A stretch of 46,776 nt of DNA, from positions 1 to 46,776 of the forward strand of contig CANRHK010000002.1 of NCBI GenBank assembly GCA_947630395.1, in the 5' to 3' direction. The position numbers and the translations under genes are program-made. Origin of the DNA: an uncultured Oscillospiraceae bacterium (lineage in GTDB: Bacteria; Bacillota; Clostridia; Oscillospirales; Oscillospiraceae). The notes below the pieces were generated by a model. The model saw nothing but the letters and a program-made list of their open reading frames with translations. It ran no database searches and was not told where the DNA came from. Positions 1 through 44,365 of the stretch are shown here, in pieces (the stretch's first letter is position 1; each line of letters opens with the position of its first letter).

Positions 1-75
<75 letters not shown>

Positions 76-1648: not shown

Positions 1649-1742
1649 TTTTCCTCCTTTGACTTGCGGCCCCCGCCCTTTGGTGCTATAATAAAGGGCG
1701 CAAAAGGGCCTTGGTGTAGTAGCTTCGGTTCTTTGCATCCGT

Positions 1743-20057: not shown

Positions 20058-20068
20058 GGTGAAAACCG

Positions 20069-23632: not shown

Positions 23633-23650
23633 AAACCCATATCGTTGATT

Positions 23651-23686
23651 GAGGCATCGCACCCCAGGGGTGCGGTGCCTTTTTCA
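23651..23686 (+). terminator. Rho-independent terminator
   Basis: AGGCATCGCACCCC-AGG-GGTGCGGTGCCTTTTT. Confidence 0.8.
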
Positions 23687-23782
23687 TACCCAAAATTACC
23701 GCTGGCCCGGCGGATAACAAGCGGGGCGGCCACAAAGCGGGGACTGGCCCGAGAAAAAGGACGTGGCAGAAAGGAGTTCATC

Positions 23783-24445: not shown

Positions 24446-24456
24446 GAGGTGTAATC

Positions 24457-24999: not shown

Positions 25000-25019
25000 A
25001 GAAAGGATGGAACGAAACT

Positions 25020-26195: not shown

Positions 26196-26201
26196 TCCGC
26201 C

Positions 26202-26609
26202 ATGGAAACGAGCGTGTATGAGGACGTGGTTCTCCGGCTGGCCATGCTGGGGTACACGGCTACCGAGGACGACAGACCCGGTATCGAATACCTGATCCGA
26301 AAGAGCGAGGTGGCGATCCTGTCCAACATCCACCACCCGGTACTGCCGGACGGCCTCCGCTACACGCTCGTGGATATGGTCGCCGGTCAGTTCTTGTACG
26401 ACAAGAAGGCCGCCGGTGGCCTGGACGGGGTGGAGGGCTTCGACTTCTCCGCCCCGGCCAAGAGCATCACCGAGGGGGACGTGTCGGTCACCTTTGCGGG
26501 GGCCAGCGACGGCGCTTCCAGCCCGGAGGCCCGCTTCGACGCCCTGCTGGACCAGCTCCGTCTCCCCCCGGAGAGCATCCTGGCCTCTTTCCGGAGGATA
26601 CGATGGTGA
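26202..26609 (+). CDS. Head-tail connector
   Basis: METSVYEDVVLRLAMLGYTATEDDRPGIEYLIRKSE; position. Confidence 0.75.
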   Translation: METSVYEDVVLRLAMLGYTATEDDRPGIEYLIRKSEVAILSNIHHPVLPDGLRYTLVDMVAGQFLYDKKAAGGLDGVEGFDFSAPAKSITEGDVSVTFAGASDGASSPEARFDALLDQLRLPPESILASFRRIRW

Positions 26610-26965
26610 GCGCCTACGAAAAGGCCATCAAGCGCCTGTGGGTGGGCCGGGCCACCATCACCGTGCTGGCTGGAGAAGTCAACTCCGCCAATGGCCGCAC
26701 GGAACCCAAGGAGCGTGTTTTGGCAGAAAACGTGCCCTGCCGTATCTCCCACCAAACCGTCACCACCACCCAGCCCCTGGAGGGGGCCTCCCAGGTGGTC
26801 CAATCCGTCGTGCTCTACATCGACCCCTCTGTGGAGATCCCGGAGGGGTCGAAAATCACGGTCACGCAGAACAAGGTCACCAAGGACTACGGGCGCAGCG
26901 GCAAGGCTGCGGTGTTCACGCACCACAAGGAAGTGCCGCTGGAGCTGTTCAAGGGGTGGGCGTAA
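26603..26965 (+). CDS. Head-tail joining / head closure-like protein (XkdH-like position)
   Basis: KRLWVGRATITVL...NVPCRISHQTVTTTQPLEGASQVVQSVVLYID; position. Confidence 0.7.
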   Translation: MVSAYEKAIKRLWVGRATITVLAGEVNSANGRTEPKERVLAENVPCRISHQTVTTTQPLEGASQVVQSVVLYIDPSVEIPEGSKITVTQNKVTKDYGRSGKAAVFTHHKEVPLELFKGWA

Positions 26966-27438
26966 TGGCAAGGTGGGGACGATGCGATTACCAGCAGCTC
27001 CAGCGGCTGCGGGAGAAGATGGCGAAGCTCCAAAGCATGGACCTGGAGAAGTTCTGTTATGACGCCTCCCGAGAGTTGGCCGCTCGGCTGCTGGCCCTGG
27101 TCATCCCACGGACCCCCGTGGGGGACTACCCCAAGTCCAGCGGCAAGAAGGGCGGCACCCTGCGCCGTGGCTGGACCGGCAAGCAGAGCGGCAGCAGCGG
27201 GACGGCCTACGCCCAGGGGCTGCCGGTCTACAAGCAGGGCACCAACTACCACATCGAGGTCATCAACCCCGTGTACTACGCCAGCTATGTGGAGTTCGGC
27301 CACCGGACGCCCGGCGGGAAAGGCTGGGTGCCGGGGCAGTACTTCCTCACCTTGTCCGAGCAGGACCTGGAGAAGATCGCCCCCGGCGTTCTGGAGAAGA
27401 AGCTGGAGCGACTTTTACGGGAGGCGTTCAATGTCTGA
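26965..27438 (+). CDS. HK97 gp10-like / XkdI-like tail completion protein
   Basis: ALVIPRTPVGDYPKSSGKKGGTLRRGWTG...VINPVYYASYVEFGHRTPGGKGWVPGQYFL. Confidence 0.85.
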   Translation: MARWGRCDYQQLQRLREKMAKLQSMDLEKFCYDASRELAARLLALVIPRTPVGDYPKSSGKKGGTLRRGWTGKQSGSSGTAYAQGLPVYKQGTNYHIEVINPVYYASYVEFGHRTPGGKGWVPGQYFLTLSEQDLEKIAPGVLEKKLERLLREAFNV

Positions 27439-27862
27439 GATCAATTTCAACAGCATTTTCGACGGCGTGAGCCTGGCGCTTCATGCCACCTTTCCAGACC
27501 GGCAAGTCCACGGCGGGAGCGTGAAGCAGGGTCTAAACGACGGGGACTTCAACGTGTTCATGCCCGGCGTGGTCAACGCCAAGGAGGTGGGCCCGCGGTA
27601 TCGGCGCACCCCGACGGTGGACGTTATCTACTACCCCAGGGACCGGAAGCGGCTCACGGCTGAGTGCTACGACATGGCCCAGCAGATGGCCCAGGTCCTG
27701 GAGAGCATCGTCACCCCGGAGGGGGACACGGTACACGCCACCAGCATGGAGTTCCAGACGACGGACGACGTGCTCCACATGATTGCCCGCTATGACCACT
27801 TCGCCCGGATCGTGCCCGAGCCGGTCATGATGGAAACACTACAAGTAAAGCAGGAGGGCTAA
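27431..27862 (+). CDS. Tail terminator-like protein (DUF6838/XkdJ-like)
   Basis: LHATFPDRQVHGGSVKQGLNDGDFNVFMPGVV...RTPTVDVIYYP; position. Confidence 0.75.
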   Translation: MSEINFNSIFDGVSLALHATFPDRQVHGGSVKQGLNDGDFNVFMPGVVNAKEVGPRYRRTPTVDVIYYPRDRKRLTAECYDMAQQMAQVLESIVTPEGDTVHATSMEFQTTDDVLHMIARYDHFARIVPEPVMMETLQVKQEG

Positions 27863-27863
27863 A

Positions 27864-28055
27864 ATGAGCAATCCAGAAACCAAGACCGCGAAAGCGGCGG
27901 CCCCGGCTGCCTTCACCCGAGAGCAGCTGGCGGCGTCCAAACGCTACGCCCGGCGGCGTGACCTGGTCACCGCCCTGCTGGAGCCGGGCAAGCGGTACAC
28001 CCTGGCCGAAGTGGACGGCCTGATCGAGAAATTTATGAAAGGCAAGGTGAATTGA
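27864..28055 (+). CDS. Small phage protein upstream of sheath
   Basis: 63-aa ORF, RBS GGAGG, conserved position before sheath. Confidence 0.6.
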   Translation: MSNPETKTAKAAAPAAFTREQLAASKRYARRRDLVTALLEPGKRYTLAEVDGLIEKFMKGKVN

Positions 28056-28056
28056 C

Positions 28057-29382
28057 ATGGCTCTTGGCGGCGGCATTTGGCTGACCCAAAACAAGGTCCT
28101 GCCCGGCAGCTATATCGTATTCTCCAGCGTGGCCCGGGCCTCCGCTACCCTGTCCGACAGGGGATATGCGGCGGCCCCCTTCGTGCTGAGCTGGGGCCCG
28201 GAGGATACGGTGTTCGCTGTCACCTCGGGGGACTTCCAGAAGAACAGCAAGCGCATCTTCGGCTATGCCTACGACCACCCGAAGATGCTGGCCCTGCGGG
28301 AGATCTTTCTCCACGCCACCACCGTCTACTGCTACCGGCTGGGCCAGGGAGCGAAGAAGGCGGAGAACACCTACGCCACGGCCAAGTACCCCGGCGTCCG
28401 GGGGAACGATATCACCATCGTGGTCGCCAACAACGTGGACGCTCCGGAGAGCTTCGACGTGGCCACGGTGCTGGACGGCATCCAGGTGGATATCCAGACG
28501 GTGACCAAGGCCGACGAGCTGGTGAGCAACGACTATGTGGACTTCAAGTCGATGGAGGAATTGACCCCCACCGCCGGGGAGCCGCTGGCCGAGGGGGCGG
28601 ACGCCTCGCAGATCACCGGCGAAACCCACCAGGCGTTCCTCGATAAAATCGAGCCCTACGCCTTCAACGCCCTGTGCTGCCCCTCCAAGGAGGAATCTAT
28701 CGTGCAGCTCTACTCCACCTTCACGGAGCGCCTGCGCGACGAGGTGGGGGCCAAGTTCCAGCTCGTGGCCTGGAAGCCGGAGAAGGCCGACTACGAGGGC
28801 ATCATCGGCACGTGGAACGCCGCCACCCATGCTACCATCCGGGACGTGGACGAATACGCCGTGGTCTACTGGCTCACTGGGGCCGAGGCTGGCGTGGCCG
28901 TGAATAAGACCCTCACCAATGCCAAGTATGACGGGGAGCTTATCCTGGACACCAACTTCGCCCAGGCGGACCTGGAGGCGGCCATCAAGGCCGGGCGGCT
29001 CATGTTCCACAACGTGAACGGCGACGTCCGGGTGCTGGAGGATATCAACACCCTGGTCACCCTGTCCGACACCAAGGGCGAGGTGTTCCAGAGCAACCAG
29101 ACCATGCGGGTGTGCGACCAGATCGCCAACGATATGGCGGTGCTGTTCAACACCCGGTACCTGGGCAGTGTCCCCAACGACGCCCCCGGTCGTGCGTCCC
29201 TGTGGGGCGATACCGTCAAGCTCATCCGGGAGCTGGAGAAGATCCGGGCCGTGCAGGACTTCGACGAGAATATCGTGTCCTGTGAGCAGGGCGACAAGAA
29301 GAAGGCCGTGCTGCTGATCATCAACGGCCTGGACATCGTGAACGCGATGTCCCAGCTCTACATGAGCGTCATCATCCAGTAA
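28057..29382 (+). CDS. Contractile tail sheath protein (XkdK-like)
   Basis: MALGGGIWLTQNKVLPGSYIVFSSVARA...DRGYAAAPFVLSWG; DINTLVTLSDTKGEVFQSNQTMRVCDQIANDMA. Confidence 0.93.
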   Translation: MALGGGIWLTQNKVLPGSYIVFSSVARASATLSDRGYAAAPFVLSWGPEDTVFAVTSGDFQKNSKRIFGYAYDHPKMLALREIFLHATTVYCYRLGQGAKKAENTYATAKYPGVRGNDITIVVANNVDAPESFDVATVLDGIQVDIQTVTKADELVSNDYVDFKSMEELTPTAGEPLAEGADASQITGETHQAFLDKIEPYAFNALCCPSKEESIVQLYSTFTERLRDEVGAKFQLVAWKPEKADYEGIIGTWNAATHATIRDVDEYAVVYWLTGAEAGVAVNKTLTNAKYDGELILDTNFAQADLEAAIKAGRLMFHNVNGDVRVLEDINTLVTLSDTKGEVFQSNQTMRVCDQIANDMAVLFNTRYLGSVPNDAPGRASLWGDTVKLIRELEKIRAVQDFDENIVSCEQGDKKKAVLLIINGLDIVNAMSQLYMSVIIQ

Positions 29383-29397
29383 GGGAGGGGAAATAGA

Positions 29398-29870
29398 TGC
29401 CGAAACCGACTATGAATACCCAGGACGCCGTCAGCGCCAATTTTGCGGAGTGCTTCGTCACCCGCAACGGGACCCGCTACTCCATGCTGATGGCGAAGGA
29501 CTTCGAGGGCAAGGCCACTATCAACACCCAGGAAGTCCCCCGGCTGGGGGCCGTGGTCATCGGCCATAAGGCGCAGACCGCGGTCCTGGCCTTCTCCATG
29601 ACCATCTACAAGTGCACGGAAATCTTCGACGACGTGGTCGAGGAGTTCATCAACACCGGCGTGATGCCCACGTTCACCATCCAGACCAGCAACGAGGACC
29701 CGGCCACTTCGGTGGGGCGCACCACGAAGATCTATAACGACTGTGTGCTGGACGGCGACGTGCTGCTGTCCATGTTCAACGCCGAGGGCGAGTTCGTGGA
29801 GCAGGCCATCGAGGGCTTCTGCGACAGCTTCAGCCGTCCGGAGAAGTACACCAACCCGTCCTATATGTAA
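29398..29870 (+). CDS. Tail tube protein (XkdM-like)
   Basis: TQDAVSANFAECFVTRNGTRYSMLMAKDFEGKATINTQEVPRLG; position after sheath. Confidence 0.88.
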
Positions 29871-29894
29871 GGGCACCGTGAAGGAGGAAAACCC

Positions 29895-30323
29895 ATGAGC
29901 AACACTCTGAGCGCATTCCTGCGGCCCAACGTGGAGCAGGTCCCCAACATCAAGATCGTCGCCTCCACCCGCTTCAAGGGGGAGGACGGCAAGCCGATGG
30001 AGTGGGAGATCCGCTGCATCTCCGCCGACGAGTACGCCCGCATCCGGGGCGGCTGCATCCGGCAGGTGCCGGTGCCCGGCAAGAAGAACCAGTACAGCCA
30101 GCAGCTGGACACCTACTCCTTCCAGGCCAAGGTCGTGGCCCGCTGCACCGTGTTCCCGGACCTCGGCAACGCCGAGCTGCAGGATAGCTGGGGCGTGACC
30201 ACCCCCGAGGCCCTGGTGGGCGCTATGCTGATCGGCGGCGAGTTCGACGACTACGTGACGGCGGTGTTCCAGGCCAACGGCTTCAAGCGGGACGACGAGC
30301 TGGTCGAGGAAGCAAAAAACTAA
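29895..30323 (+). CDS. Tail assembly chaperone, short form (XkdN-like)
   Basis: MSNTLSAFLRPNVEQVPNIKIVASTRFKGEDGKPMEWEIRCISADEYARIR. Confidence 0.88.
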   Translation: MSNTLSAFLRPNVEQVPNIKIVASTRFKGEDGKPMEWEIRCISADEYARIRGGCIRQVPVPGKKNQYSQQLDTYSFQAKVVARCTVFPDLGNAELQDSWGVTTPEALVGAMLIGGEFDDYVTAVFQANGFKRDDELVEEAKN

Positions 30324-30511
30324 TTGAGGACGGCGACCCGGACGCTTCCTTTGCACACTTCTGTCTGCAAAAGTTCGGCTGGGAGCCGTCCAAGTTTTTG
30401 AACCTCCCGCGGGAGGAACGGGCCTTTGTGGTGGCCTCTATCAAAATCCGCATCGAAACGGAGAAGAAGAAAGAGGCCGAAATCAAAAGCAAGGCCAAGC
30501 GCAAGAAATAG
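30314..30511 (+). CDS. Tail assembly chaperone -1 frameshift extension (long form 29895..30511)
   Basis: Slippery A_AAA_AAC at 30314-30320 directly before TAA; -1 frame reads KKLIEDGDPDASFAHFCLQKFGWEPSKFLNLPREERAFVVASIKIRIETEKKKEAEIKSKAKRKK* to 30511. Confidence 0.85.
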   Translation, partial: KKLIEDGDPDASFAHFCLQKFGWEPSKFLNLPREERAFVVASIKIRIETEKKKEAEIKSKAKRKK

Positions 30512-30517
30512 CCACGC

Positions 30518-30553
30518 GGCCCCCGCTGACTCCAGCGGGGGCCTTGCTTTGTA
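30518..30553 (+). terminator. Terminator-like hairpin
   Basis: GGCCCCCGCTG-ACTC-CAGCGGGGGCC then TTGCTTTG. Confidence 0.6.
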
Positions 30554-30568
30554 AAGGGGGGTGAACCT

Positions 30569-32917
30569 GTGGCTACTATCCGGTCCCAAATGACGCTCAA
30601 CGACGGGATGTCCTCCGTGCTGAAGAAAATCACCAGGGCCCTGGACACCACACTCCACACCTTTGAAGCGGTGCAGGCGGCCTCCGGCCAGGCTATGGAT
30701 ACGGCGCTGATTCGGGCGGCCCACACGGAGCTGGCCCAGGCCAACGCCGAGATTGACCGCATGGAGGCCGGCTTCCGGGAAGCGGAGCAGCAGGAGCGGC
30801 GGCTGAATGCCAGCCTAAACAACGGGACGAACGCCGCCGGGCAGCTCCTGGGGAAAATCGCCTCCATGGTGGCCGCCTATGCCAGTCTGTCGGCCATCAA
30901 GGGCTTTGTCACCGACAGCCTGGAGGCCGCCGACGTGCAGATCGGGGCCCAGGTGCAGCTGCGGACCGTCCTGGAGAACATGGACGCCACGGTGAGCGGC
31001 TACGGGACGGGCGAGGTCATAGAGGACACCCTAACCCTGGACACGGACCCGGCCCTGGCCGCCTACGACGCCGCCCTCGCCTACTACGGAGACGGGACGG
31101 TGGAAGAAACGCTCACCATGGACACCTCCGGAGCGGAGGCCGCCTACGACGCCATCGTGCAAAAGGCGGCGGATATCCAGAGCCGGGGCATCTACGGCGA
31201 CGAGGCCATGATCGCCGGAGCCGCCGAGCTGGCCACCTACTTCTCCGACGCCGACGCCATCCTCAGTATGATGGACACGCTCAGCAACTACGCCATGGGC
31301 ATGAGCGGCGGCGGCGAGGTGAACAGCGAGGCCATGGTGGACTACGCCACCGGCATCGGCAAAATCATGTCCGGCAGCTACGACGCGATGACCAAGAAGG
31401 GCTTCGAGTTCTCCGACAGCCAGAAGGCCATCATCGAGGGCACCGCCACACAGTCCGAAATCGTCCAGGAGCTGGGCGAGGACTACCTGGCCATGAGCCA
31501 GGAAATGCAGGCCGCCGCCGTCATCGGCTCTATCATCGACGAGGGCTGGGCCGGTCTGTACGAAACTATGAGCAACACCCCGGAGGGGCAGATTATCCAG
31601 TTCAACAATGCCCTGGGCGACATCAAGGAGATGGCCGGTGCCGGTATCTACCCCGCCGTGCTAAATTTCATGAACCTGTTCCGGGAGAACCTTCCGCAGA
31701 TCCAAAACCTGACCATGGGGTTTGTATCCGTCCTCGGCTACCTGCTGGGGATACTCACCGGGATAACCACAGCCGCCGTAAACTTCGGCAGCGCCGTCAT
31801 GGAAAATTGGAGCTGGCTCGGGCCCATCGTGATGGGCGTCGTGACCGCGCTGCTGGCCTACCACGGGGCGCTGCTGGCCATCAATATCGCGGAGGGCATA
31901 CACAACGGCCTGGAGGTCATGTCCGCGGCGTCGGCGGCCTGGAAGTCCGGGGCGACCCTTGCGGAAGCAGCCGCCACAACGACCGCCACAGGGGCCCAGG
32001 TGGGCCTCAACGCCGCTCTGCTGGCCTGCCCTATTACCTGGATAGTGGTGGCCGTAATCGCCCTTATAGCGGGCATTGTGGCCCTTTGTAACTGGATCGC
32101 CAAGACCACCGGCGTGGCGCAGACGGGCTTCGGTGTAATCACCGGCGGCATCAATGTGGCCATCCAAGCGGTAATCAACGCCGGGATGGTGGTGGCAAAC
32201 GTGGCCCTGGGCATCTGGAACGCTATGGGCGCTGTCTGCTCCAACATCGGCACCGCTTTCCACAACGTGATAGCCAACGTGCAGGGCTGGTTCTTCGGCC
32301 TGCTGTCCACCGCCCTCACGGTGGTGGCCGGTATCTGCGAGGCGCTCAATAAGCTGCCCTTCGTGGAGTTCGACTACTCCGGCATCACCGGAAAGGCGGA
32401 CGAGTTCGCCGCCAAGTCTGCGGAAGCCTACGGCAACACCGAGGACTATACCAGCGTGGGGGACGCTTTCTCCGAGGGCTTCGGTACCTTCGACGCCTTC
32501 TCCGAGGGCTGGGCCTCCGATGCTTTCCAGGCGGGTGCCGCCTGGGGCGACGGTGTGGCCGACAAGGTGGGCGGCCTGTTCAGCTACGAGCCCGGCTCCA
32601 TCGACGACTACACGCAGAACGCCATGGCCGGGGCGGGCTTCACCCTGGACGATATGGCCGGGGACGTGGGGGACATCGCCGGGAACACCGGCAGCATGGC
32701 CGACAGCATGGAAGTGAGCCAGGAGGAGCTTGCCTACCTCCGGGATATCGCAGAGCGGGACGCCATCAACCGGTTCACCACGGCGGAAGTCTCCATCGAC
32801 ATGACCGGCATGACCAACCGCATCGAGGGCGAGGCCGATCTGGACGGGGTGATCACCCAGCTGACGGAGGGCTTCACCGATGCGCTGTTGACCGCCGCGG
32901 AGGGGGTACACGCATGA
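30569..32917 (+). CDS. Tail tape measure protein
   Basis: GTG start; 782 aa, hydrophobic central helices, follows chaperone; MATIRSQMTLNDGMSSVLKKITRALDTTL. Confidence 0.9.
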   Translation: MATIRSQMTLNDGMSSVLKKITRALDTTLHTFEAVQAASGQAMDTALIRAAHTELAQANAEIDRMEAGFREAEQQERRLNASLNNGTNAAGQLLGKIASMVAAYASLSAIKGFVTDSLEAADVQIGAQVQLRTVLENMDATVSGYGTGEVIEDTLTLDTDPALAAYDAALAYYGDGTVEETLTMDTSGAEAAYDAIVQKAADIQSRGIYGDEAMIAGAAELATYFSDADAILSMMDTLSNYAMGMSGGGEVNSEAMVDYATGIGKIMSGSYDAMTKKGFEFSDSQKAIIEGTATQSEIVQELGEDYLAMSQEMQAAAVIGSIIDEGWAGLYETMSNTPEGQIIQFNNALGDIKEMAGAGIYPAVLNFMNLFRENLPQIQNLTMGFVSVLGYLLGILTGITTAAVNFGSAVMENWSWLGPIVMGVVTALLAYHGALLAINIAEGIHNGLEVMSAASAAWKSGATLAEAAATTTATGAQVGLNAALLACPITWIVVAVIALIAGIVALCNWIAKTTGVAQTGFGVITGGINVAIQAVINAGMVVANVALGIWNAMGAVCSNIGTAFHNVIANVQGWFFGLLSTALTVVAGICEALNKLPFVEFDYSGITGKADEFAAKSAEAYGNTEDYTSVGDAFSEGFGTFDAFSEGWASDAFQAGAAWGDGVADKVGGLFSYEPGSIDDYTQNAMAGAGFTLDDMAGDVGDIAGNTGSMADSMEVSQEELAYLRDIAERDAINRFTTAEVSIDMTGMTNRIEGEADLDGVITQLTEGFTDALLTAAEGVHA

Positions 32918-33579
32918 GTTATGCCTGCTATCTGGACGGGGTGGAGTTCCCGGTCCCGTCCAAGCTGACCGTGAAGGTCAAAAACAAAAACAAGACCCTG
33001 GTCCTGCTGAACGAGGGGGAGATCAACTTCCTACGCACCCCCGGCCTGACCGAGATCGTGGTGCCCTTCGATTTCCCCATGCTCACCGGCTCCCGGTCCC
33101 CGGACTACTACCTGGGCGTCCTGGAGAAGCTGAAAACGGAGAAGCGCCACACGCAGTTTATCCTGGTCCGGCGCTCCCCCAATGGGCGGGCCCTTTTCGA
33201 CACCAATATCCAGGTGAGCTGTGAGGACTACAACGTCACGGAGGACGGCAAGAACGGCCTGGACGTGAGCGTGGACGTCAGCCTCAAACAGTGGCGGGAC
33301 TACGGCACCAAGACCGTGACGGTGCAGGAGAGCCCGGCCCCGGCGCAGGACACCTCCGCCCCCAGCCAGCCGCAGACCGTGGCTGTGGAGAAGGAGCGGG
33401 ACACCAGCACGGCCCCCCAGGCGAAAACCTACACCGTGAAGAAAGGCGATACTCTGTGGGCCATCGCCAAGAAGTACTACGGGGCGGGGGCCCAATACTC
33501 CAAAATCTACGAGGCCAACACGGACAAGATAAGCAACCCGAATCTGATCTATGTAGGGCAGGTGTTGACCATCCCATGA
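32914..33579 (+). CDS. LysM-domain tail protein (XkdP-like)
   Basis: C-terminal KTYTVKKGDTLWAIAKKYYGAGAQYSKIYEANTDKISNPNLIYVGQVLTIP. Confidence 0.92.
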   Translation: MSYACYLDGVEFPVPSKLTVKVKNKNKTLVLLNEGEINFLRTPGLTEIVVPFDFPMLTGSRSPDYYLGVLEKLKTEKRHTQFILVRRSPNGRALFDTNIQVSCEDYNVTEDGKNGLDVSVDVSLKQWRDYGTKTVTVQESPAPAQDTSAPSQPQTVAVEKERDTSTAPQAKTYTVKKGDTLWAIAKKYYGAGAQYSKIYEANTDKISNPNLIYVGQVLTIP

Positions 33580-34541
33580 CCTACGAATTGCTGATCCAGC
33601 ACGGCAGCCAAATCATGCTCCCGCCGGTGGTGGAGGGCGTCACCATCGAATGGGAACGGCAAGGCCAGCCGGGGAAGCTGGTGGCCGACGTGGTAAAGTC
33701 GCCGGGCCTCAGCTTCCAGGAGGGGGACCCCTGCCGCTTTTCCGTGGACGGCACCCCCGTCTTTTACGGCTTCGTGTTCGACAAGTCCCGCAAGGGCAGC
33801 AACCCCAACGTGATAACCATCACGGTTTACGACCAGCTGTACTACTTCAAGAACAAGGACACCTACGTCTACTCCAACAAAACGGCCACCGAGGTCATCC
33901 GCATGGTGGCCGAGGACTTCCAGCTCCAGTGTGGGGCCCTGGAGGATACCGGGTATAAAATCGCCAGCCGGGTGGAGGACAACCAGACGCTTTTTGATAT
34001 CGTCCAGAACGCCCTGGACGAAACCCTAAAGGCCACCGGCCAGATGTATGTCCTATTCGACGACGTGGGCAAGCTGACCCTCCGGGCCCTGGGCAGCATG
34101 AAGCTGGGGATGCTGATTGACGACGAGGCCGCCGGGGACTACAACTACAAGAGCTCCATTTCCTCTCAGACCTACGACAAGATAAAGCTCTCCTACGAAA
34201 ACAAGGACACCGGCAAGCGGGAAATCTACGTGGCCCAGGACGGCTCCCACATCAACCAGTGGGGCGTCCTCCAGTACTACGAGAAGATCAACAGCACGGC
34301 CAACGCCAAGGCCATGGCCGACGCCCTGCTGGGGCTCTACAACACCAAGACCCGCACCCTAAAGCTCCAAAACGTCCTGGGGGATATCCGGGTGCGGGCC
34401 GGGACGCTGCTGGTGGTCATGCTGGGGCTGGGCGATATCAACCTCTCCAACTATCTCATGGTGGAGCAGGTCAAGCACACGTTCAGCGATAACCAGCACC
34501 TCATGGAGTGCAAAATGCGAGGTGGTACGTTTGTCTCTTGA
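33576..34541 (+). CDS. Baseplate hub protein (XkdQ/gpD-like)
   Basis: WERQGQPGKLVADVVKSPGLSFQEGDPCRFSVDGTPVFYGFVFDKSRKG; ATGA overlap with XkdP-like gene. Confidence 0.9.
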   Translation: MTYELLIQHGSQIMLPPVVEGVTIEWERQGQPGKLVADVVKSPGLSFQEGDPCRFSVDGTPVFYGFVFDKSRKGSNPNVITITVYDQLYYFKNKDTYVYSNKTATEVIRMVAEDFQLQCGALEDTGYKIASRVEDNQTLFDIVQNALDETLKATGQMYVLFDDVGKLTLRALGSMKLGMLIDDEAAGDYNYKSSISSQTYDKIKLSYENKDTGKREIYVAQDGSHINQWGVLQYYEKINSTANAKAMADALLGLYNTKTRTLKLQNVLGDIRVRAGTLLVVMLGLGDINLSNYLMVEQVKHTFSDNQHLMECKMRGGTFVS

Positions 34542-34953
34542 CGCCAACGAGCTGGTCCGGGCGGTGAAGCGGGCGGCTGTGGACGCTGTCATGGCGGCGG
34601 GGCCTATGGCGATTTGCTTCGGTACGGTCACCGCCGAGGCCCCCCTGCAAATCACCGTGGACCAAAAGAAGATCCTCGGGGAAGCCCAGCTCATACTCAC
34701 CAACGCCGTCCGGGACTTCAACGTGGAGATGTCCACCATCGAGGGGACCGGCAAGAGCGAGGGCCCCCACTACACCGAGAACGAAAGCGGCGGGGCCGGT
34801 GACGCCGCCTTTGCATCCCACCGGCACAGATACCAGGGCCGCAAAAAGTGGCGGGTACACCTGGCCCTAAAGAACGGGGAGAAGGTCATCCTGCTACGCT
34901 GCGACGGCGGCCAGAAATTCGTTGTCCTGGACAGATGGGAGGCACCGGAGTAA
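34522..34953 (+). CDS. DUF2577-like baseplate protein (XkdR-like)
   Basis: FGTVTAEAPLQITVDQKKILGEAQLILTNAVRDF. Confidence 0.88.
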   Translation: MVRLSLDANELVRAVKRAAVDAVMAAGPMAICFGTVTAEAPLQITVDQKKILGEAQLILTNAVRDFNVEMSTIEGTGKSEGPHYTENESGGAGDAAFASHRHRYQGRKKWRVHLALKNGEKVILLRCDGGQKFVVLDRWEAPE

Positions 34954-35363
34954 TGGCCATGCTACCGACCACCGGGGAAAACCTGGACCTTGTCAGCCTG
35001 GTCTTTGCAGAGCAGCCGGGCTATACCCACAAGCTGGACCTGGACAGAAACCGGGTCAGCGGCATGACAGACGGGCGGGATGCCCTCTACCAAGCCGTCT
35101 ATCTGATTTTGAACGTGGACCGCTACGCCTACCCCATCTATTCCTGGCGCTACGGTATCGAGAGGGCGGACCTCATAGGGAAGCCCAAGGACTACGTTAT
35201 GAGCGAGTTGAAGCGCCGTGTGAACGACGCCTTGGGCCAGGACGACCGGATCACCGGCACCGACCAATGGACCTTTGAAACGGGCAGGCGGAGCCTTCAC
35301 GCCTCCTTCGTAGTCAACACCATCTATGGAGAAATCGAAATGGAGACGGAGGTGGCAATCTAA
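34953..35363 (+). CDS. DUF2634-like baseplate protein (XkdS / gp25-like)
   Basis: DGRDALYQAVYLILNVDRYAYPIYSWRYGIERADLIGKPKDYVMSELKRRVNDAL. Confidence 0.9.
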   Translation: MAMLPTTGENLDLVSLVFAEQPGYTHKLDLDRNRVSGMTDGRDALYQAVYLILNVDRYAYPIYSWRYGIERADLIGKPKDYVMSELKRRVNDALGQDDRITGTDQWTFETGRRSLHASFVVNTIYGEIEMETEVAI

Positions 35364-35365
35364 CC

Positions 35366-36583
35366 ATGTATGAGGATATGACCTACGAAGCCCTGCTGCA
35401 GCGGGCCCTCTCCCGGCTCCCGGCCACCATCGACAAGCGGGAGGGGTCCATGGTGATGAACGGCGTGGCCCCGTCTATGGCGGAGCTCGCCATGCTCTAC
35501 ATCGCCGCCGACTTCGTATTCCGGGCCACCTACCTGCTGACGGCTCCCCGCGAGTACCTTATCAAGCGGGCGGCGGACCGCAACATGGCCCCCTATGGGG
35601 CCAGCGCCGCCGTGTTCCGGGGCGAGTTCAATGTGCTCTTGCCCCTGGGGGCCCGCTTCTCCTGCGACGACCTCAACTTCGTGGCCACGGAGCGGATGCC
35701 GGAGAAGGACGAAAACGGGCGCTTCAGCTATCGCCTGATCTGCGAAACGGCGGGGGCCGTCGCCAACGGATACACCGGCACCCTCATTCCCGTGGAGTAC
35801 GTGGACGGGCTGACCTACGCCGAGCTGGTGGAGCTGCTTGTCCCCGGGGAGGACGAGGAAGAAACCGAGGCATTCCGGCAGCGGGTCCTCGACAGCTACA
35901 AATCCCAAGCCTTCGGCGGCAACCAGGCCGACTATGTGGAGAAGGTCAACGCCATGGAGGGCGTGGGCGCTGTCAAGGTCCACCCCGTCTGGAACGGCGG
36001 CATCAGCCCGGCGTCTTTCATCCCCAGCGAGGAAGTGACGTCCTGGTACGAGGGGGCCGTGGGCACCCTGGAGCCGGCTGTATCGGCCTGGCTGACGGCA
36101 GTACACACGGCGGCCAAGGACAAGCTGCTGACGGTGGGCGGCACCGTCAAGCTGGTAATCCTGGCCGCTGACAACCGGGCCCCCAGCGAGGAGCTCCTGC
36201 AGCAGATCCAAACGGCCATAGACCCCACCCAAAACGCCGGGGAGGGCCTGGGCCTCGCCCCTATCGGACACGTGGTCCATGTGGTGGGCGTCACCGCTCA
36301 GCAGGTGAATATCACCCTCCACATCACCTACGCCCACGGCTGGGGGTGGGACTCCGCCAAGAGCTACATCGAGAAGGTCGTCGACGACTACCTCCTGGAG
36401 CTGTCCCGGAGCTGGGCCAGCTCCGATTTTATCACCGTCCGCATTTCGCAGATTGAGAGCCGCATCCTGGCGGAGTGCGCCACGATGGTCACCGACCTGG
36501 GCGGCACCGAAATCAACGGCAAGGAGGAAAACCTTGTGCTGGATGCTGACAGCATCCCTGTGAGGGGGACTGTCGATGGATAG
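35366..36583 (+). CDS. Baseplate J-like protein (XkdT-like)
   Basis: MTYEALLQRALSRLPATIDKREGSMVMNGVAPSMAELAMLYI...TEAFRQRVLDSYKSQAFGGNQADYVEKVNAMEGVGAVKVHPVWNGG. Confidence 0.93.
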   Translation: MYEDMTYEALLQRALSRLPATIDKREGSMVMNGVAPSMAELAMLYIAADFVFRATYLLTAPREYLIKRAADRNMAPYGASAAVFRGEFNVLLPLGARFSCDDLNFVATERMPEKDENGRFSYRLICETAGAVANGYTGTLIPVEYVDGLTYAELVELLVPGEDEEETEAFRQRVLDSYKSQAFGGNQADYVEKVNAMEGVGAVKVHPVWNGGISPASFIPSEEVTSWYEGAVGTLEPAVSAWLTAVHTAAKDKLLTVGGTVKLVILAADNRAPSEELLQQIQTAIDPTQNAGEGLGLAPIGHVVHVVGVTAQQVNITLHITYAHGWGWDSAKSYIEKVVDDYLLELSRSWASSDFITVRISQIESRILAECATMVTDLGGTEINGKEENLVLDADSIPVRGTVDG

Positions 36584-37217
36584 GCATCTGCTGGACTACC
36601 TCCCGCCGGTACTCCAGGAAGTCCTGGAGTTCAAGGCCATCAACGAGGCTTGTGAGCCGGAGATCGTTCTCGCCTGGGACGCCCTGACGCTGATCCTGGA
36701 CAATCAGTTCCTGGACACCGCGAAGGAGTCCGGGGTCCGGGTGTGGGAGCAGGAGCTGGGGATATACCCCAAGGACACGGACACCCTGCAAGCCCGCAAG
36801 GACCGCATCAAGGCGTATTGGAACCGGGAGCTACCCTATACCCTCCCCTGGCTCAAACAGTGGCTGGCGGGGCTGTGTGGCCCCCTGGGGCACCAAGAAA
36901 CGGTCACCGACTACACCATCGCCATCCAGTTGGACCACACCGTCCTCCCGGACGCCGCCCGGCTGACCGGCGAAATACTGGAAATGTTGCTGGCCGTCCG
37001 GCCCTCCAATATGCGGGTCCTCATGGACTCCATGCTCCAGACCAACGGGGGCGTCATCGTCGGGGCCTGCTCCGAGATGGAGAGCCGTGTGGACGTGTGG
37101 CCCCGGCTGGTCAATGACATGGAGAGCTTCGGCGGCAGCATAGCGGCGGGAACAATCGAATACCACGCAAAGGTCAATATCTATCCGAAACAAGGAGGGA
37201 CACAAGATGCCCGGTGA
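36576..37217 (+). CDS. DUF2313-like tail protein (XkdU/YmfQ-like)
   Basis: LLDYLPPVLQEVLEFKAINEACEPEIVLAWDALTLILDNQFLDTA...GVRVWEQELGI. Confidence 0.88.
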   Translation: MDRHLLDYLPPVLQEVLEFKAINEACEPEIVLAWDALTLILDNQFLDTAKESGVRVWEQELGIYPKDTDTLQARKDRIKAYWNRELPYTLPWLKQWLAGLCGPLGHQETVTDYTIAIQLDHTVLPDAARLTGEILEMLLAVRPSNMRVLMDSMLQTNGGVIVGACSEMESRVDVWPRLVNDMESFGGSIAAGTIEYHAKVNIYPKQGGTQDAR

Positions 37218-39864
37218 AAAAACCTATGGCACCATAGTGACGACGAAGGGGGCGGAGCTGATCGCCGCCTGCATCCTCAACGGCGAAAAGCTGAAGATCT
37301 CCGAGGCCGCCGCCGGTGACGGAAACGGGGCCTACTACGTCCCGTCGCTGGACCAGGAGGCGCTCCTGCACGAGCTGTGGCGGGGCGAGATTGCCTCCGC
37401 GGAGCTGAACGCCTCCACCCCGAATATGCTGGACGTCAAAATCGTCATTGACGACAGCGTGGGGAATTTCATCGTCCGGGAAATGGGCCTGTTCAGCGAG
37501 GACGGCGACCTGATCGCCGTCTGCAACACCCCCGACACCGAGAAGGTGGCAATCTCCACCGGCGTGTCCGGTCAGCTGACGATGGTCATGCACATCGTAG
37601 TGGCGGACGCCTCGGTGGTGGAGTTCACCATCTCCCCCAGCCTGGACACCGTGAGCAAGGAGGACCTGGAGAACGCCATCTCCAAGCACAACACCGACAA
37701 GAACGCCCACCCGGATATCCGGGCCTCGCTCACCGACCTGGACACCCGGCTCAAGGCCGCCGCGAAAACGGCTGGGGATGCCGCCGACGCTGCGGACAAG
37801 GCCCTCAAGGCCATCACCAAGCTGACAAACACCATCAGCACCGTGCCCTCGCAGAACGGCACCCTCACCTATAACGGCGGCAATCAGACCCCGACCTGGA
37901 ACAACTACAACCCGGACGCCCTCGACCTGGGCGGCGTGACCGAGGGGAAGGATGCCGGGGAGTACGAGGCCACCTTCACGCCCAAGGAGGGCTTCACCTG
38001 GAGCGACGAGAGCAGCGAGGCCAAGAAGGTGAAGTGGTACATCAGCCGGGCGACCATCGCCGTGGAGCCCTCGCAGACGGGAACGCTGACCTATGACGGG
38101 GAGCCCAAGACCCCCAGCTGGACCGGCTACGACGAAGATAAAATGACCCTGGGCGGCACCACGACGGCCACGGAGGCCGGGCAGCACACCGCTGAATTTA
38201 CCCCGACCAAAAATTATCAGTGGTCCAACGGCTCCAGCGACAAGAAGGACATCCTCTGGACCATCGGGCGGGCGACCATCACGGCCACCCCCGCCCAGCG
38301 GGGCACCCTCACCTATACCGGGGAAGTGCTGACCCCCAGCTGGAACGACTACGACCCGGACAAGCTCACCCTCGGCGGCCAGCCTACCGGCACCACCGCC
38401 GGGCGGTATGAGGCCACCTTCACCCCGACGAAGAATTACCAGTGGAGCGGCGGGTCCATCACGGCCAAGACGGTGGCCTGGAACATCAACAAGGCGGCGG
38501 GCAGCCTGTCCATTGACACGCCCACCCTCACGCTGAACGCGAAAACCAAGAGCGGCACCATCAAGGTCACCAGGGCCGGGAACGGCACCATCACCGCCAG
38601 CGCCAGCCCCGACAGCGTGGCGTCGGTGTCCGTCGCCGGGGACGTGGTCACCGTCACGGGGAAGTCCTACGGCGTGGCCAGCGTCACCATCAAAGTGGGC
38701 GAGGGTACCAACCACCTGGCACCGGCGGAGGGAAAGACCTGCTCCGTCACCGTGAACATTTTCACCGGCGACATCAAGAGCAACTCCTGGGCCGCGATTC
38801 GGGCCGCCAGCGCCGCCGGAGAAGCCGCCAGCACCTGGGCCGTGGGCGACACCAAGCCCATCACCTTGAACGGCAAAGTGGGGAATTTCAACTTCTCCAG
38901 CTTCTCCATAGACGTGTTCATCATCGGCTTCAACCACAACGCCTCCAGGGAGGGCAACAACAAGACCCACTGGCAGATCGGCAAGATCAACGGCAAGATG
39001 GTGGGCCTCTGCGACACCAAGTACGGCAGCGGTGTTTCCGAGGCTGGGTACTTCTCCATGAACACTACGAACACCAACGTAGGCGGCTGGAAGAATAGCT
39101 ACCGGCGCAAGACCCTCTATGGCAACGACGACACGCACACGCCCACCAACCCGCTCCCGAATAGCCTCATGGCCGCCCTGCCCGCCGATCTCCGGGCCGT
39201 CATGCAGCCGGTGACCAAGTACACGGACAACACCGGCAACGCCTCGAATAAGGACACCGACGTCACCACGACCACGGATTACCTGTTCGACCTGGCGGAG
39301 TTTGAGGTCCAGGACAAGCGGTACTATGCCAATCAGTACGAGCAAAACTACCAGGTGAGGTATGCCTACTATCAGGCGGGCAATACGAAGATTGCCTATC
39401 GACATGACAACACAGGGTCGGCGGTGTGGTGGTTCGGGCGGTCCCCTTATTACTCCAACTACTATTACTTCACCTTTACCTTCACCGACGGCTCCAAGGC
39501 GGTAATCCTTTCAGGTGACATGGTTTTGGGCGGAGTGCGCAACTATCTGGAATCCTACGGGAGCGATGCGGTACTGCTGGCCAGCATCTCCCCCAACAAC
39601 GCCCTACAGAGCTACTTTGTGGATGAGGAAGGGCTGGATGATGTTTATCTCACTGAGAAAGCCCAAACCAAGATCGGCTGGCAGTCGGTCTTCCTGGATG
39701 AGATGATGGCCCGGGGTTATGTCGGGGAGCTCCAGGATTTTATGGAGTGCGCCGCCACCGGGCGGCAGCCAATCTCAGGGTTTGAGATGGCCTATAAGAC
39801 AACCAGGGCAATCTATGCTGCGTATCTGGCGGCCGAGAAAGACAGCCGGGTACAAATGATTTGA
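37207..39864 (+). CDS. Chimeric ORF: phage tail fibre (XkdV-like N-terminus, Ig-like repeats, truncated DUF6273-like domain) fused in frame to C-terminus of a Gfo/Idh/MocA-type oxidoreductase
   Basis: GTIVTTKGAELIAACILNGEKLKISEAAAGDG N-terminus; three ~74-aa repeats; GSAVWWFGRSPYYSNYYYF; then NYLESYGSDAVLLASISPNNALQSYFVDEEGLDDVYLTEKAQTKIGWQSVFLDEMMARGYVGELQDFMECAATGRQPISGFEMAYKTTRAIYAAYLAAEK. Confidence 0.85.
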   Translation: MPGEKTYGTIVTTKGAELIAACILNGEKLKISEAAAGDGNGAYYVPSLDQEALLHELWRGEIASAELNASTPNMLDVKIVIDDSVGNFIVREMGLFSEDGDLIAVCNTPDTEKVAISTGVSGQLTMVMHIVVADASVVEFTISPSLDTVSKEDLENAISKHNTDKNAHPDIRASLTDLDTRLKAAAKTAGDAADAADKALKAITKLTNTISTVPSQNGTLTYNGGNQTPTWNNYNPDALDLGGVTEGKDAGEYEATFTPKEGFTWSDESSEAKKVKWYISRATIAVEPSQTGTLTYDGEPKTPSWTGYDEDKMTLGGTTTATEAGQHTAEFTPTKNYQWSNGSSDKKDILWTIGRATITATPAQRGTLTYTGEVLTPSWNDYDPDKLTLGGQPTGTTAGRYEATFTPTKNYQWSGGSITAKTVAWNINKAAGSLSIDTPTLTLNAKTKSGTIKVTRAGNGTITASASPDSVASVSVAGDVVTVTGKSYGVASVTIKVGEGTNHLAPAEGKTCSVTVNIFTGDIKSNSWAAIRAASAAGEAASTWAVGDTKPITLNGKVGNFNFSSFSIDVFIIGFNHNASREGNNKTHWQIGKINGKMVGLCDTKYGSGVSEAGYFSMNTTNTNVGGWKNSYRRKTLYGNDDTHTPTNPLPNSLMAALPADLRAVMQPVTKYTDNTGNASNKDTDVTTTTDYLFDLAEFEVQDKRYYANQYEQNYQVRYAYYQAGNTKIAYRHDNTGSAVWWFGRSPYYSNYYYFTFTFTDGSKAVILSGDMVLGGVRNYLESYGSDAVLLASISPNNALQSYFVDEEGLDDVYLTEKAQTKIGWQSVFLDEMMARGYVGELQDFMECAATGRQPISGFEMAYKTTRAIYAAYLAAEKDSRVQMI
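37845..38500 (+). repeat. Three tandem ~74-aa Ig-like repeats in the tail fibre
   Basis: PSQNGTLTYNGG..TPTWNNYNPD / PSQTGTLTYDGEPKTPSWTGYDED / PAQRGTLTYTGEVLTPSWNDYDPD units. Confidence 0.85.
39520..39864 (+). pseudogene. Remnant 3' end of host Gfo/Idh/MocA oxidoreductase
   Basis: C-terminal signature and codon usage shift relative to the phage part; the N-terminal Rossmann half is absent. Confidence 0.75.
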
Positions 39865-39881
39865 CGAATGAGGTGAGAGCA

Positions 39882-40820
39882 TTGAAAACAAAGGAGTCAA
39901 CGGCGGCCCACAGCAAGCGCGGCTGGAAACAGCGGGCATATCAAAGCCGCTATCTGCTGATGATGATGTTTATTCCTTTTGTTTATCTGATCATTTTCCA
40001 CTATATTCCCATGTATGGCGTTCAAATCGCCTTTCGGGACTACAACCCTTATCTGGGCATTCTGAAAAGCCCTTGGGTGGGGATTTCCCACTTTATCGAT
40101 TTCTTTACCTCCACCTATTTTTGGCGCCTGATCAGAAACACATTGGCTATTAGTCTGCTTCAGCTGCTTTTGGCATTTCCCGCCGCGATTATCCTGGCGC
40201 TGATGATTAACGACCTGGAAAATAAATACTTTCAGAAAGCAGTGCAAACCATTGCCTATCTTCCCCATTTTATTTCCTCCGTGGTGGTGGCCGGTCTGGT
40301 GCTCTCTGTGCTTGCTACCCGCACGGGCATCATCAACCAGGCGCGCCATGCCCTTGGGCTGGGCGAGATTTCCTTTATGACGAAGTCATCCTATTTCCCG
40401 TTTATCATGGTACTTACCGAGATTTGGCAGAACACTGGCTGGGGCTCCATCATCTATTTGGCGGCGATGACCGCCATTGACCCGGCGCTTTATGAGGCGG
40501 CGATTGTGGACGGTGCCTCCCGCTGGCAGCAGATCCGCAACATTACGCTTCCCTGTATCCTTCCCACCATCATCATCCAGTTTATCCTAAAGGTGGGCGG
40601 CCTGTTTACCGTGGGATATCAGAAGATCCTGCTGCTGTATAACCCGCAGATTTATGAGAATGCCGATGTTATCGGAACCTATGTGTATCGCCGCGGCCTG
40701 ATGGGGCTGGAATACAGCTTCGGCGCCGCTGTGGATCTGTTCAATACCGTGCTGAACCTGCTGATGCTGCTGACGTTTAACGCTATCTGCCGCAAGGTCA
40801 GTGACACCAGCCTGTGGTAA
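39882..40820 (+). CDS. ABC transporter permease (LplB-like)
   Basis: IIFHYIPMYGVQIAFRDYNPYLGI; EAAIVDGASRWQQIRNITLPCILPTIII. TTG start at 39882 with upstream GAGGTGAG. Confidence 0.92.
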   Translation: MKTKESTAAHSKRGWKQRAYQSRYLLMMMFIPFVYLIIFHYIPMYGVQIAFRDYNPYLGILKSPWVGISHFIDFFTSTYFWRLIRNTLAISLLQLLLAFPAAIILALMINDLENKYFQKAVQTIAYLPHFISSVVVAGLVLSVLATRTGIINQARHALGLGEISFMTKSSYFPFIMVLTEIWQNTGWGSIIYLAAMTAIDPALYEAAIVDGASRWQQIRNITLPCILPTIIIQFILKVGGLFTVGYQKILLLYNPQIYENADVIGTYVYRRGLMGLEYSFGAAVDLFNTVLNLLMLLTFNAICRKVSDTSLW

Positions 40821-40832
40821 AGGGGGATTCAT

Positions 40833-41711
40833 ATGAGTATTCAAAAGCTGTCAGCGGGGGATAAAGCCTTTAAGGCAGTTAACGGGGTGGTTCTAATCCT
40901 GTTCTGCGCCCTAATCCTGTATCCGCTTTTGTGGATTGTCAGCGGCTCCTTCTCGGACCCCTTTGCGCTTATGACCGGTAAGGTCCACCTGCTGCCGGTG
41001 GATCCCACGCTGAAAATCTATAAGATTGTCTTTAAGCATCCGGATATCTGGATATCTTACCGCAATACCATTGTCTATACCGTTGTGGGTACCTTTATCA
41101 GTGTCTGCCTTACCGCCATGGCGGCGTATCCCCTTTCCAGAACCGAGTTTTTTGGTAAACAATTCTTTACGGCCGTGCTGATGATCACGATGTTTTTTTC
41201 CGGCGGCATGATCCCTACTTTTCTGCTGGTGCAGAAACTGAAAATGTTGGACACCATCTGGGCCATCGTCCTTCCGGGCGCGATGAGCGTTTACAACACC
41301 ATCGTTATGCGCACCTTCTTCATCTCCACCATTCCCAAGGAGCTGGAGGATTCCGCTTTCCTGGATGGGGCCAACGATATCCAGTTTTTCTGGAAGATTG
41401 TGCTGCCCCTTTCCAAGGCCATTATGGCGGTTATGGTGCTCTTTTACGGGGTGGGCCAGTGGAACAGCTGGTTTTCCGCTTTCCTGTACATGTCCTCCCG
41501 GGACCGCTACCCTCTTCAGCTGATCCTCCGGGAGATTCTGATTCAGGGCAATACCAACATCAGCGGTGGGGGAGGCGGCGATAACGACCTGATCGGAGAG
41601 GGCGTAAAGTTTGCCACGATGGTGGTGGCCACGGTTCCCATTATGTGCCTCTATCCATTTTTGCAGAAGTATTTTACCAAGGGCGTTATGATTGGTTCCT
41701 TAAAGGGATAA
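40833..41711 (+). CDS. ABC transporter permease (YtcP/AraQ-like)
   Basis: LYPLLWIVSGSFSDP; EDSAFLDGANDIQFFWKIVLPLSKAIMAVM. Confidence 0.92.
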   Translation: MSIQKLSAGDKAFKAVNGVVLILFCALILYPLLWIVSGSFSDPFALMTGKVHLLPVDPTLKIYKIVFKHPDIWISYRNTIVYTVVGTFISVCLTAMAAYPLSRTEFFGKQFFTAVLMITMFFSGGMIPTFLLVQKLKMLDTIWAIVLPGAMSVYNTIVMRTFFISTIPKELEDSAFLDGANDIQFFWKIVLPLSKAIMAVMVLFYGVGQWNSWFSAFLYMSSRDRYPLQLILREILIQGNTNISGGGGGDNDLIGEGVKFATMVVATVPIMCLYPFLQKYFTKGVMIGSLKG

Positions 41712-41763
41712 TGCGTTGACAGTGATTCCTTTGCCTTATATATTATTAAAGGAGGAAGATTCT

Positions 41764-43461
41764 ATGAAAACCAAGCAAAAAGCAGTGTCTATGGCTTTGG
41801 CATGTTTGTTGGCTGTTTCCTGTGCTGGGTGCAGCGGTGCTTCCGGCAGCTCCAGCGCCGCCCCTGCGTCCTCCGCGAAGAGCAGCTCCGGTACCACCCC
41901 TGCATCTTCCGCACCGAGCAGCTCCGCCTCGGAGGCTGCGGGAAATGAGTACGGTGTCCCTCAAATTTCTGAAAAACCCATTACGCTGAAGATCTATGCC
42001 TCCAAGGGCAGCGGAACTCCCGACTACAACGATATGGAGCACATGAAAAAGTATGGTGAGTTTACCAATGTGTCGGTAGAGTGGGAGCAGCCTCCGCAAG
42101 ACCTTTCCACAGAACGTTTCAACATTGTCATCGCTTCCAACGAGCTGCCAGATATGTTCTGGAACATCAAGGCCGACCAGTATACGCAGCTGAAAACCAC
42201 AAAGGCCATCATCCCGGTCCAGGATTACTTCTCCCAGTGCCCCCATCTCCAAAATGTCATGGCGGAGTTTCCCAATATGGAGAAATATATTTTTGACCCC
42301 GACGGCCAGGCGTACAGCCTTCCGTTCTTTGACGGACTGACCGTAAATGATATCATGATCCTGCGCAAGGACTGGCTGGATCAGCTTGGGATGGACGTTC
42401 CCGTCACCAAGGACGACTGGCTCCAATATTGGCGCGGCGTTCGGGACAACGACGTCAACGGAAACGGTGACAGCTCTGATGAGATCCCCCTTTCCGGCAC
42501 CAGTTTCAACAGCGTTCTCTCCCTGATGAGCGCGTTTGAGATGGACAGCATGAATAACGGCTTCTTTGTGGATCCCTCGGATGGGAACAAGGTGAAGTAC
42601 TCCTACTACGATTCTAGGTTCCGCGACTTTATAAGCTGGATTCACCAGCTCTGGGAGGAAAATATCATCGACCCAGATATCCTCTCCACCGACTCTAAAA
42701 CCTTGGGCAACAATACCGCTTTGAACCTGGTAGGCTCTTACCGCGGCAAATTAAACGGCCAGCTGAACACCTACATGACTACGATGCCGGATAAAATCCC
42801 CGGGTTTGACCTGCTGGGGACTCCGCCGATTCAAAGTGACAACGGCGTTTCCTTCCATCCTGGTTCTGTTCCTCTGGTGCGCACGGATACCATCGGCGGC
42901 GTTGTCACCGTTACGAGCAAATACCCGGAGGAATGTGTGCGGTACTGCGATTGGTTCTATGATTTTTCTGCTCCTTACGGCGGTGCATTCATGAATATCT
43001 TTGGCTATGAGGGTGTGACTTTTGAGTACGCCAACGCTGAAAAGACCGATTATCAGTATACTGACTGGGTGCTGCACAATGCTGATGGACTGTCCCCTCA
43101 ACAGGCGCTGCAGACGATGACCACCCGCTGCCAGCATCCATCCTATGTCCCTCCCATCGGCAGCTTCAAGATGTGGCATCCCTCCACGGTCGCCTCTTAT
43201 GAGAACAGCGAGCCGTATTACAATGACTCTCTGAAATATAAGGTACCCAGCCTGACCTTCAGTGATGCGGACGCGAAAACCATCCGCAGCACCATGGCGG
43301 ATATCAGCACCTACGTCTCGGAAATGAGCGCCAAGTTTATGACCGGCGAGGAGTCCCTCGACCAGTTTGAGAGCTATATTGCGACCATCCAGGGTATGGG
43401 TATTGAGAATGTCCTGGAAATTTACAACAAAACCTATCAGGAGTGGAACCAGCCCCGATAA
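41764..43461 (+). CDS. Extracellular solute-binding lipoprotein
   Basis: Signal peptide with lipobox LAVSCAGC; ELPDMFWNIKADQY; pairs with the two permeases. Confidence 0.92.
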   Translation: MKTKQKAVSMALACLLAVSCAGCSGASGSSSAAPASSAKSSSGTTPASSAPSSSASEAAGNEYGVPQISEKPITLKIYASKGSGTPDYNDMEHMKKYGEFTNVSVEWEQPPQDLSTERFNIVIASNELPDMFWNIKADQYTQLKTTKAIIPVQDYFSQCPHLQNVMAEFPNMEKYIFDPDGQAYSLPFFDGLTVNDIMILRKDWLDQLGMDVPVTKDDWLQYWRGVRDNDVNGNGDSSDEIPLSGTSFNSVLSLMSAFEMDSMNNGFFVDPSDGNKVKYSYYDSRFRDFISWIHQLWEENIIDPDILSTDSKTLGNNTALNLVGSYRGKLNGQLNTYMTTMPDKIPGFDLLGTPPIQSDNGVSFHPGSVPLVRTDTIGGVVTVTSKYPEECVRYCDWFYDFSAPYGGAFMNIFGYEGVTFEYANAEKTDYQYTDWVLHNADGLSPQQALQTMTTRCQHPSYVPPIGSFKMWHPSTVASYENSEPYYNDSLKYKVPSLTFSDADAKTIRSTMADISTYVSEMSAKFMTGEESLDQFESYIATIQGMGIENVLEIYNKTYQEWNQPR

Positions 43462-43567: not shown

Positions 43568-44365
43568 ATGATTAAGGAACTAAACCACGTAGCGGTAAGA
43601 ACCGGTGATATGGAGGCATCCCTCCACTTTTATGTGGATATTCTGGGCGCTAAGGTGATTCGCGACGCTACCTCCCCCGACGGTAAAGGACGCTTTGTCT
43701 ATGTCCAGCTGGTGGACGGCGTGATTGAAATCATCAAAGGCAAACCTGGCTCTGACAATTTGGGGCTTCAGCATGTGGCGTTTCTGATCTCCGACGATAC
43801 GGATATCCATCAGGTCCATGACAAGCTGGTGGGGATGGGTTACCACTTTACGGTGGAGCCGAAGCCCGCTTCCTCCGGTGATGGCTATCTGGCCTTCTTT
43901 GAGGATACCAGCGGCGCCATCTTCGAGGTGATCCAGCGCAAGGAGAATATCCGGATTCCCGGGCTGAAAAACGAACATCTGGAGGAATTTGACCATATCT
44001 CCATCCGTGTGACAGACGACAGCTATAAGCAGTGCGAGGACTTTTATCTGAACACCATGGGCTTTGAGGTGCGCCGCATTCTGGAAAAACCCAAGTCGGT
44101 GATGAGCTATTACAAATTTGGTCCCGATACGCTGGAAACGCTTTACTCCGTGGGAAAGCCCAAAGTGGAGAAGCCTCTGTGCCACATCGCGTTCCGGGTG
44201 AAGGACTGTTTTGAAACCAAGAAATATCTGGAATCCCAGGGCGTTGCCTGCCCGGAGCCGAAGACCTCCGGTATGGGAGACTTCCATGTGATGAATATCA
44301 CTGGACCGGATGGCGAGATTCTGGAATTCCTGGATCGGGTATCTCTGGATGATTATCGCAAATAA
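43568..44365 (+). CDS. Two-domain VOC/glyoxalase-family protein
   Basis: LNHVAVRTGDMEASLHFYVDILGAKV and second copy FDHISIRVTDDSYKQCEDFYLNTMGFEV; LQHVAFLI, CHIAFRV. Confidence 0.9.
   Translation: MIKELNHVAVRTGDMEASLHFYVDILGAKVIRDATSPDGKGRFVYVQLVDGVIEIIKGKPGSDNLGLQHVAFLISDDTDIHQVHDKLVGMGYHFTVEPKPASSGDGYLAFFEDTSGAIFEVIQRKENIRIPGLKNEHLEEFDHISIRVTDDSYKQCEDFYLNTMGFEVRRILEKPKSVMSYYKFGPDTLETLYSVGKPKVEKPLCHIAFRVKDCFETKKYLESQGVACPEPKTSGMGDFHVMNITGPDGEILEFLDRVSLDDYRK

Follow-up and report, generated by a model that had tools for sequence, protein, structure and literature searches.

The 885-residue open reading frame (ORF) that joins a phage tail fibre to the end of a Gfo/Idh/MocA oxidoreductase is most probably the product of a chimeric metagenome contig, joined at a hypervariable region, and not a real gene. 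The stretch of DNA analysed here (the window) is the entire contig C2 (46,776 bp), which ranks among the longest contigs in a draft genome of 2.4 Mb and 274 contigs. Within it the ORF runs uninterrupted from 37207 to 39864, and the in-frame fusion claimed by a sequence-only reading is indeed in the assembled sequence, as indicated by the Pfam domains and a homologue in the Ruminococcaceae MAG UBA1405 (locus L004). That reading had proposed either a deletion or a misassembly as the cause. Misassembly is favoured over deletion by the break in a variable region, by a lysis gene and att core found on another contig (C64) of the bin, and by the foreign appearance of the right-hand side.

The N-terminal part of the ORF is as in other tail-collar fibre proteins, with a near-full-length Phage_tail_fib domain (PF12571) at residues 5-146 (1.5e-37), and residues 627-760 match DUF6273 (1.5e-5; positions 32-149 of the 172 in profile PF19789). 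When the last 121 residues were searched separately, they gave the predicted Gfo/Idh/MocA match (GFO_IDH_MocA_C, 7e-4). The match is confined to profile positions 121-218 of 218 and leaves out the beginning of the domain, and its 19.9 bits lie just below the cut-off of 22.9 bits. The homology of the ORF tail to Gfo/Idh proteins is certain, because residues 1-120 of the tail are 81% identical to the UBA1405 protein. The last 127 or so residues of the ORF belong to a Gfo/Idh/MocA C-terminal domain and continue colinearly into the sugar-ABC operon. Compared with the UBA1405 oxidoreductase it keeps approximately the last third of the protein; the start is absent, and Pfam detected no N-terminal NAD(P)-binding Rossmann domain in the fused ORF, whereas L004 has one. 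The UBA1405 gene (L004:5193-6363) is itself divided between two overlapping reading frames, which match GFO_IDH_MocA (Rossmann domain) and GFO_IDH_MocA_C; the split is a frameshift or an assembly error.

Table 1. Features of the window that bear on the fused ORF.
Feature	Coordinates	Strand	Basis
tRNA-Thr(GGT) without its first base, attL; core 31-75 identical on C64 and C9	1..74	+	Rfam tRNA 65.3 bits, 5'-cut; 45-bp identity
Prophage tyrosine integrase, adjoining the tRNA 3' end	about 233..1738	-	PF00589 5e-24; phrog_1 integrase
Prophage packaging, head, contractile-tail and baseplate genes (terminase large subunit, major head protein, sheath, baseplate)	18433..37217	+	PHROGs
Tail-collar fibre gene with C-terminal DUF6273 (DGR-target type), cut within the variable region	37207..39477	+	Pfam, PHROGs, alignment with relatives
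Truncated DGR variable region, 5' part (SAVWWFGRSPYYSNYYYFTF)	39415..39477	+	TR/VR pairs of relatives
Junction zone	39469..39480	+	Phage-like certain to F755 (39469-39471); host-like at latest from T758 (39478)
Gfo/Idh/MocA oxidoreductase, C-terminal third, without NAD-binding domain	39478..39864	+	Pfam; 81% identity to L004
LplB-type sugar ABC permease	39861..40820	+	PF00528; 85.1% aa identity to UBA1405
YtcP-type sugar ABC permease	40833..41711	+	PF00528; 88.0% aa identity to UBA1405
Solute-binding lipoprotein (SBP)	41716..43461	+	PF01547; 75.3% aa identity to UBA1405
Glyoxalase-family protein, same operon	43568..44365	+	Domain search; blastn to L004

Alignment with relatives shows that the fibre gene breaks off within a DGR variable region (VR), at residue 755-757. 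Where the relatives' gene is complete, the domain extends about 25 residues past the junction point to a stop that follows "...GFAA". None of 42 fibre relatives reads through into Gfo/Idh, and the domain order of the fused ORF is thus found in no other phage of this set. Most relatives carry a template repeat (TR) about 0.5-1.1 kb downstream of the fibre C-terminus, and in VR/TR pairs 203 of 378 template A's differ, versus 13 of 1055 other bases. A DGR-type RT is encoded downstream in 40 of 56 related loci (the copy in L211 matches Pfam RVT_1). In the draft genome of the window, a profile search for RVT_1 and a search for the start of the VR with up to three mismatches returned neither an RT nor a second VR/TR copy.

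DUF6273 proteins with a C-terminal VR have been described as DGR targets in the Faecalibacterium phages Roos, Pioen and Lelie (PMC11792537) and among 'tentaclins' (PMC10743442). The window fibre likewise has its VR at the C-terminus of the domain, and over residues 283-749 it shares about 49-50% identity with FP_Taranis, Roos and Pioen proteins. Unlike these published targets, the window copy is cut within the VR and has no TR or RT after it or in the bin. In the sister phages L206 and L211, a different module replaces everything beyond the N-terminal 195 or so residues of the fibre; this module begins with a short fibre gene and a TR-like segment, followed by an RT and a tentaclin-like protein that combines DUF6273 with an Ig/FN3-like part and has its VR near the N-terminus.

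The contigs of 4 of the 42 IMG/VR relatives stop within the same stretch of about 130 bp of the VR, against 0.36 expected from the lengths of the relatives' contigs if contig ends are uniformly placed (P about 5e-4). DGR variable regions appear to be sites at which metagenome contigs break. The exact 24-mer at the start of the window VR has no match in IMG/VR, so the true continuation of the gene is not readable from a near-identical phage there; GenBank likewise holds only 76% relatives.

The junction can be placed to within a few codons, and both the span (39460-39864) and the 'FTFTDGS' junction given in the sequence-only reading are correct at that resolution. Protein alignment shows that phage relatives continue as '...WWxxRSPYYSNxNYFCFVYTDGTxxxYYAYxSxGVRPGFAA' followed by a stop, of which the window retains ...RSPYYSNYYYF. 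Oxidoreductase relatives read '...VEDxxxxxxxTFTDGSKA...GDMVLGGVR'; the window retains TFTDGSKAVILSGDMVLGGVR and has lost the VED(W) motif. Phage-like sequence could extend as far as F757 (39477), and DNA similarity to L004 (blastn) starts at 39481 and extends through the ABC operon. At the position of T758 most phage relatives have V, encoded by a GTN codon. DGRs mutate A's only. Given that the relatives' codon contains no A, T758 was not made by a DGR. The fusion is in frame because both sides carry a TDG motif in one frame at 39469-39480. Of the microhomology suggested earlier, the shared (F/Y)TDG motif is real, but no junction word of 16-21 bp matched any of the other loci analysed. The overlap of the two parental sequences may be only about 9-15 bp.

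The left-hand side of the junction belongs to a prophage integrated in a tRNA-Thr gene, the anticodon of which (GGT) was taken from a reading of the sequence. Rfam detects this tRNA and ARAGORN does not, probably owing to the missing first base. The contig starts at base 2 of the tRNA, and this start is probably an assembly break at the repeated att/tRNA sequence. The integrase (501 aa) has an Xre-type HTH_3 domain at residues 184-221, between its SAM-like and catalytic domains. Two ORFs between a ParB-like gene and the terminase region (16183-17340 and 17175-18077) are predicted to encode an ABC ATPase-like protein with an acetyltransferase-like part and a formyltransferase-like protein, seemingly an unusual pair for a prophage. 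From 27.9 to 37.7 kb the window is colinear with the IMG/VR sister phages L205-L217, at a DNA identity of about 75% and a range of about 70-79% (blastn). The fibre is the last phage gene in the window; in the sister phages a DGR RT and a second DUF6273 protein come after it, and an endolysin lies about 5 kb beyond the fibre.

Because the prophage is integrated in tRNA-Thr, a second copy of the tRNA 3' end must mark its genuine right boundary. The edge of C64, at base 10991 of this contig from the same bin, lies 3 bp upstream of an endolysin gene (phrog_3513) that is 57-62% identical to the sister-phage endolysin in amino acids and 71-74% in nucleotides, and about 2.3 kb past this gene is a 45-bp att core identical to positions 31-75 of the window. 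This layout fits the right end expected of a prophage in that tRNA and argues against a deletion of the right end. We infer that the right end of the present prophage is found on C64. No sequence connects C64 to the fibre gene, and the link falls short of proof because C9 carries the same 45-bp core next to a different integrase, such that several elements use the site. The three copies of the tRNA-Thr 3' core (window 31-75, C64 7702-7786 and C9 19593-19637) each have an integrase nearby on the downstream side, and several mobile elements (the prophage, a Fic/MobA-type and an FtsK/replication-type element) are apparently stacked or competing at this tRNA.

On the right-hand side, the LplB/YtcP-type context described in the sequence-only reading is present, with LplB, YtcP and solute-binding protein genes following the ORF in the same order as downstream of the oxidoreductase in UBA1405. 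DNA similarity to UBA1405 reaches 44086, within the glyoxalase gene and near the end of the L004 locus. The last 7.3 kb of the window have a GC content of 0.532, versus 0.618 +/- 0.038 in 75 chunks of 7 kb from the same genome. Their tetranucleotide correlation is 0.473 to their own genome and 0.614 to UBA1405, and none of the 75 chunks is shifted as far towards UBA1405. The operon proteins are 75-88% identical to those of UBA1405, a distant relative, against a median of 47% for matching proteins of the two genomes. The SBP has no close relative, at a threshold of E<=1e-60, among 150 further genomes of the family, and the LacI-type regulator that neighbours the oxidoreductase has only distant relatives in the window's own genome. 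Even in the genus of UBA1405 the operon is accessory, being present in one of four genomes. By composition and closest relatives, these 7.3 kb are foreign, whether as another organism's DNA added during assembly or as an operon gained by lateral transfer. As claimed earlier, the junction lacks both the right end of the prophage and the 5' portion of the oxidoreductase gene, and the latter was found nowhere in the bin. The label of 'host' oxidoreductase is doubtful, since that side is unlike this genome and the fragment is probably from another organism.

These features most probably have a common origin in assembly. The prophage in tRNA-Thr encodes a tail fibre whose C-terminal DUF6273 is a DGR target, and DGR activity would make the 3' end of the fibre gene hypervariable in the population and duplicate it in the template repeat. 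An assembly break at the VR is expected because reads of this stretch then differ from one another and the stretch has a further copy in the genome. The assembler path would halt there and would then be continued through an unrelated contig with a short (F/Y)TDG-coding stretch in common. This contig would be the sugar-ABC operon of a different Ruminococcaceae-like organism, and the path would join it in the 3' third of the Gfo/Idh gene. We infer that DGR variation caused the break and that the assembler made the join. Chimeric metagenome contigs likewise show two sides that differ in composition and closest relatives, as seen here, and a break at a hypervariable repeat; in this case the diagnosis comes from the assembled sequence alone. 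A literature search on chimeric prophage contigs in MAGs found none. The joining step is unexplained in detail, given that an overlap of about 9-15 bp is below the usual assembly k-mers, and C64 may be the end of a different phage.

Alternatively, a real deletion or illegitimate recombination could have removed the right end of the prophage (the 3' end of the VR, the DGR, the lysis genes and attR). We regard such an event as unlikely. Its other breakpoint would lie in a laterally acquired sugar-ABC operon, so that the fibre became fused to the 3' third of a Gfo/Idh gene, and the outcome would be a defective prophage and a broken enzyme gene. The ORF is open along its whole length, the in-frame TDG motif common to both parents could act as microhomology, and the DNA overlap seems short for a de Bruijn join. 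The patchy distribution of the operon, even within the genus of UBA1405, is consistent with its lateral transfer into this genome. However, an endolysin-to-att segment of the expected kind persists in the bin on C64, for which a second source would be needed, and both attR and the host flank originally on the right would need to have been lost or taken by another element. The deletion further requires that a rare transfer took place and that the break fell precisely within the one segment of about 130 bp at which contigs of this kind tend to stop. It is improbable, marginally more so than the deletion as such, that the join exists in cells as a deletion of a DGR prophage inside its VR, with a putatively expressed fibre-oxidoreductase fusion and a defective, domesticated prophage. 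A chimeric contig is in our judgement the likely explanation, because one event at a break-prone site accounts for all of the facts and deletion needs more.

Site-specific insertion of the phage into the Gfo/Idh gene, with 39478 as attR, would explain the sharp boundary between phage and host-like DNA but is extremely improbable. The attL is the tRNA-Thr next to the integrase, no copy of the 45-bp core is at the junction, and the 5' half of the oxidoreductase gene is neither at the left end of the window, which has no homology to the oxidoreductase locus, nor elsewhere in the bin; we rejected insertion into this gene on the basis of the tRNA att site. Capture of an oxidoreductase domain by the phage as a receptor-binding or catalytic fibre tip has in its favour the open reading frame alone and is scarcely credible: a working protein is very unlikely because the enzyme fragment has neither the NAD-binding domain nor the first part of its C-terminal domain and the fibre is deprived of the last part of its binding domain, and the 42 relatives offer no parallel.

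If the fusion were biological, it would be of little consequence, since both its enzyme part and its fibre are broken. Taken as an artefact, it gives a useful warning for the interpretation of metagenomes. In this case contigs were probably joined wrongly at a DGR variable region, and wrong joins at such regions can yield convincing in-frame phage-host 'fusion genes', as well as false host or operon assignments in MAGs.
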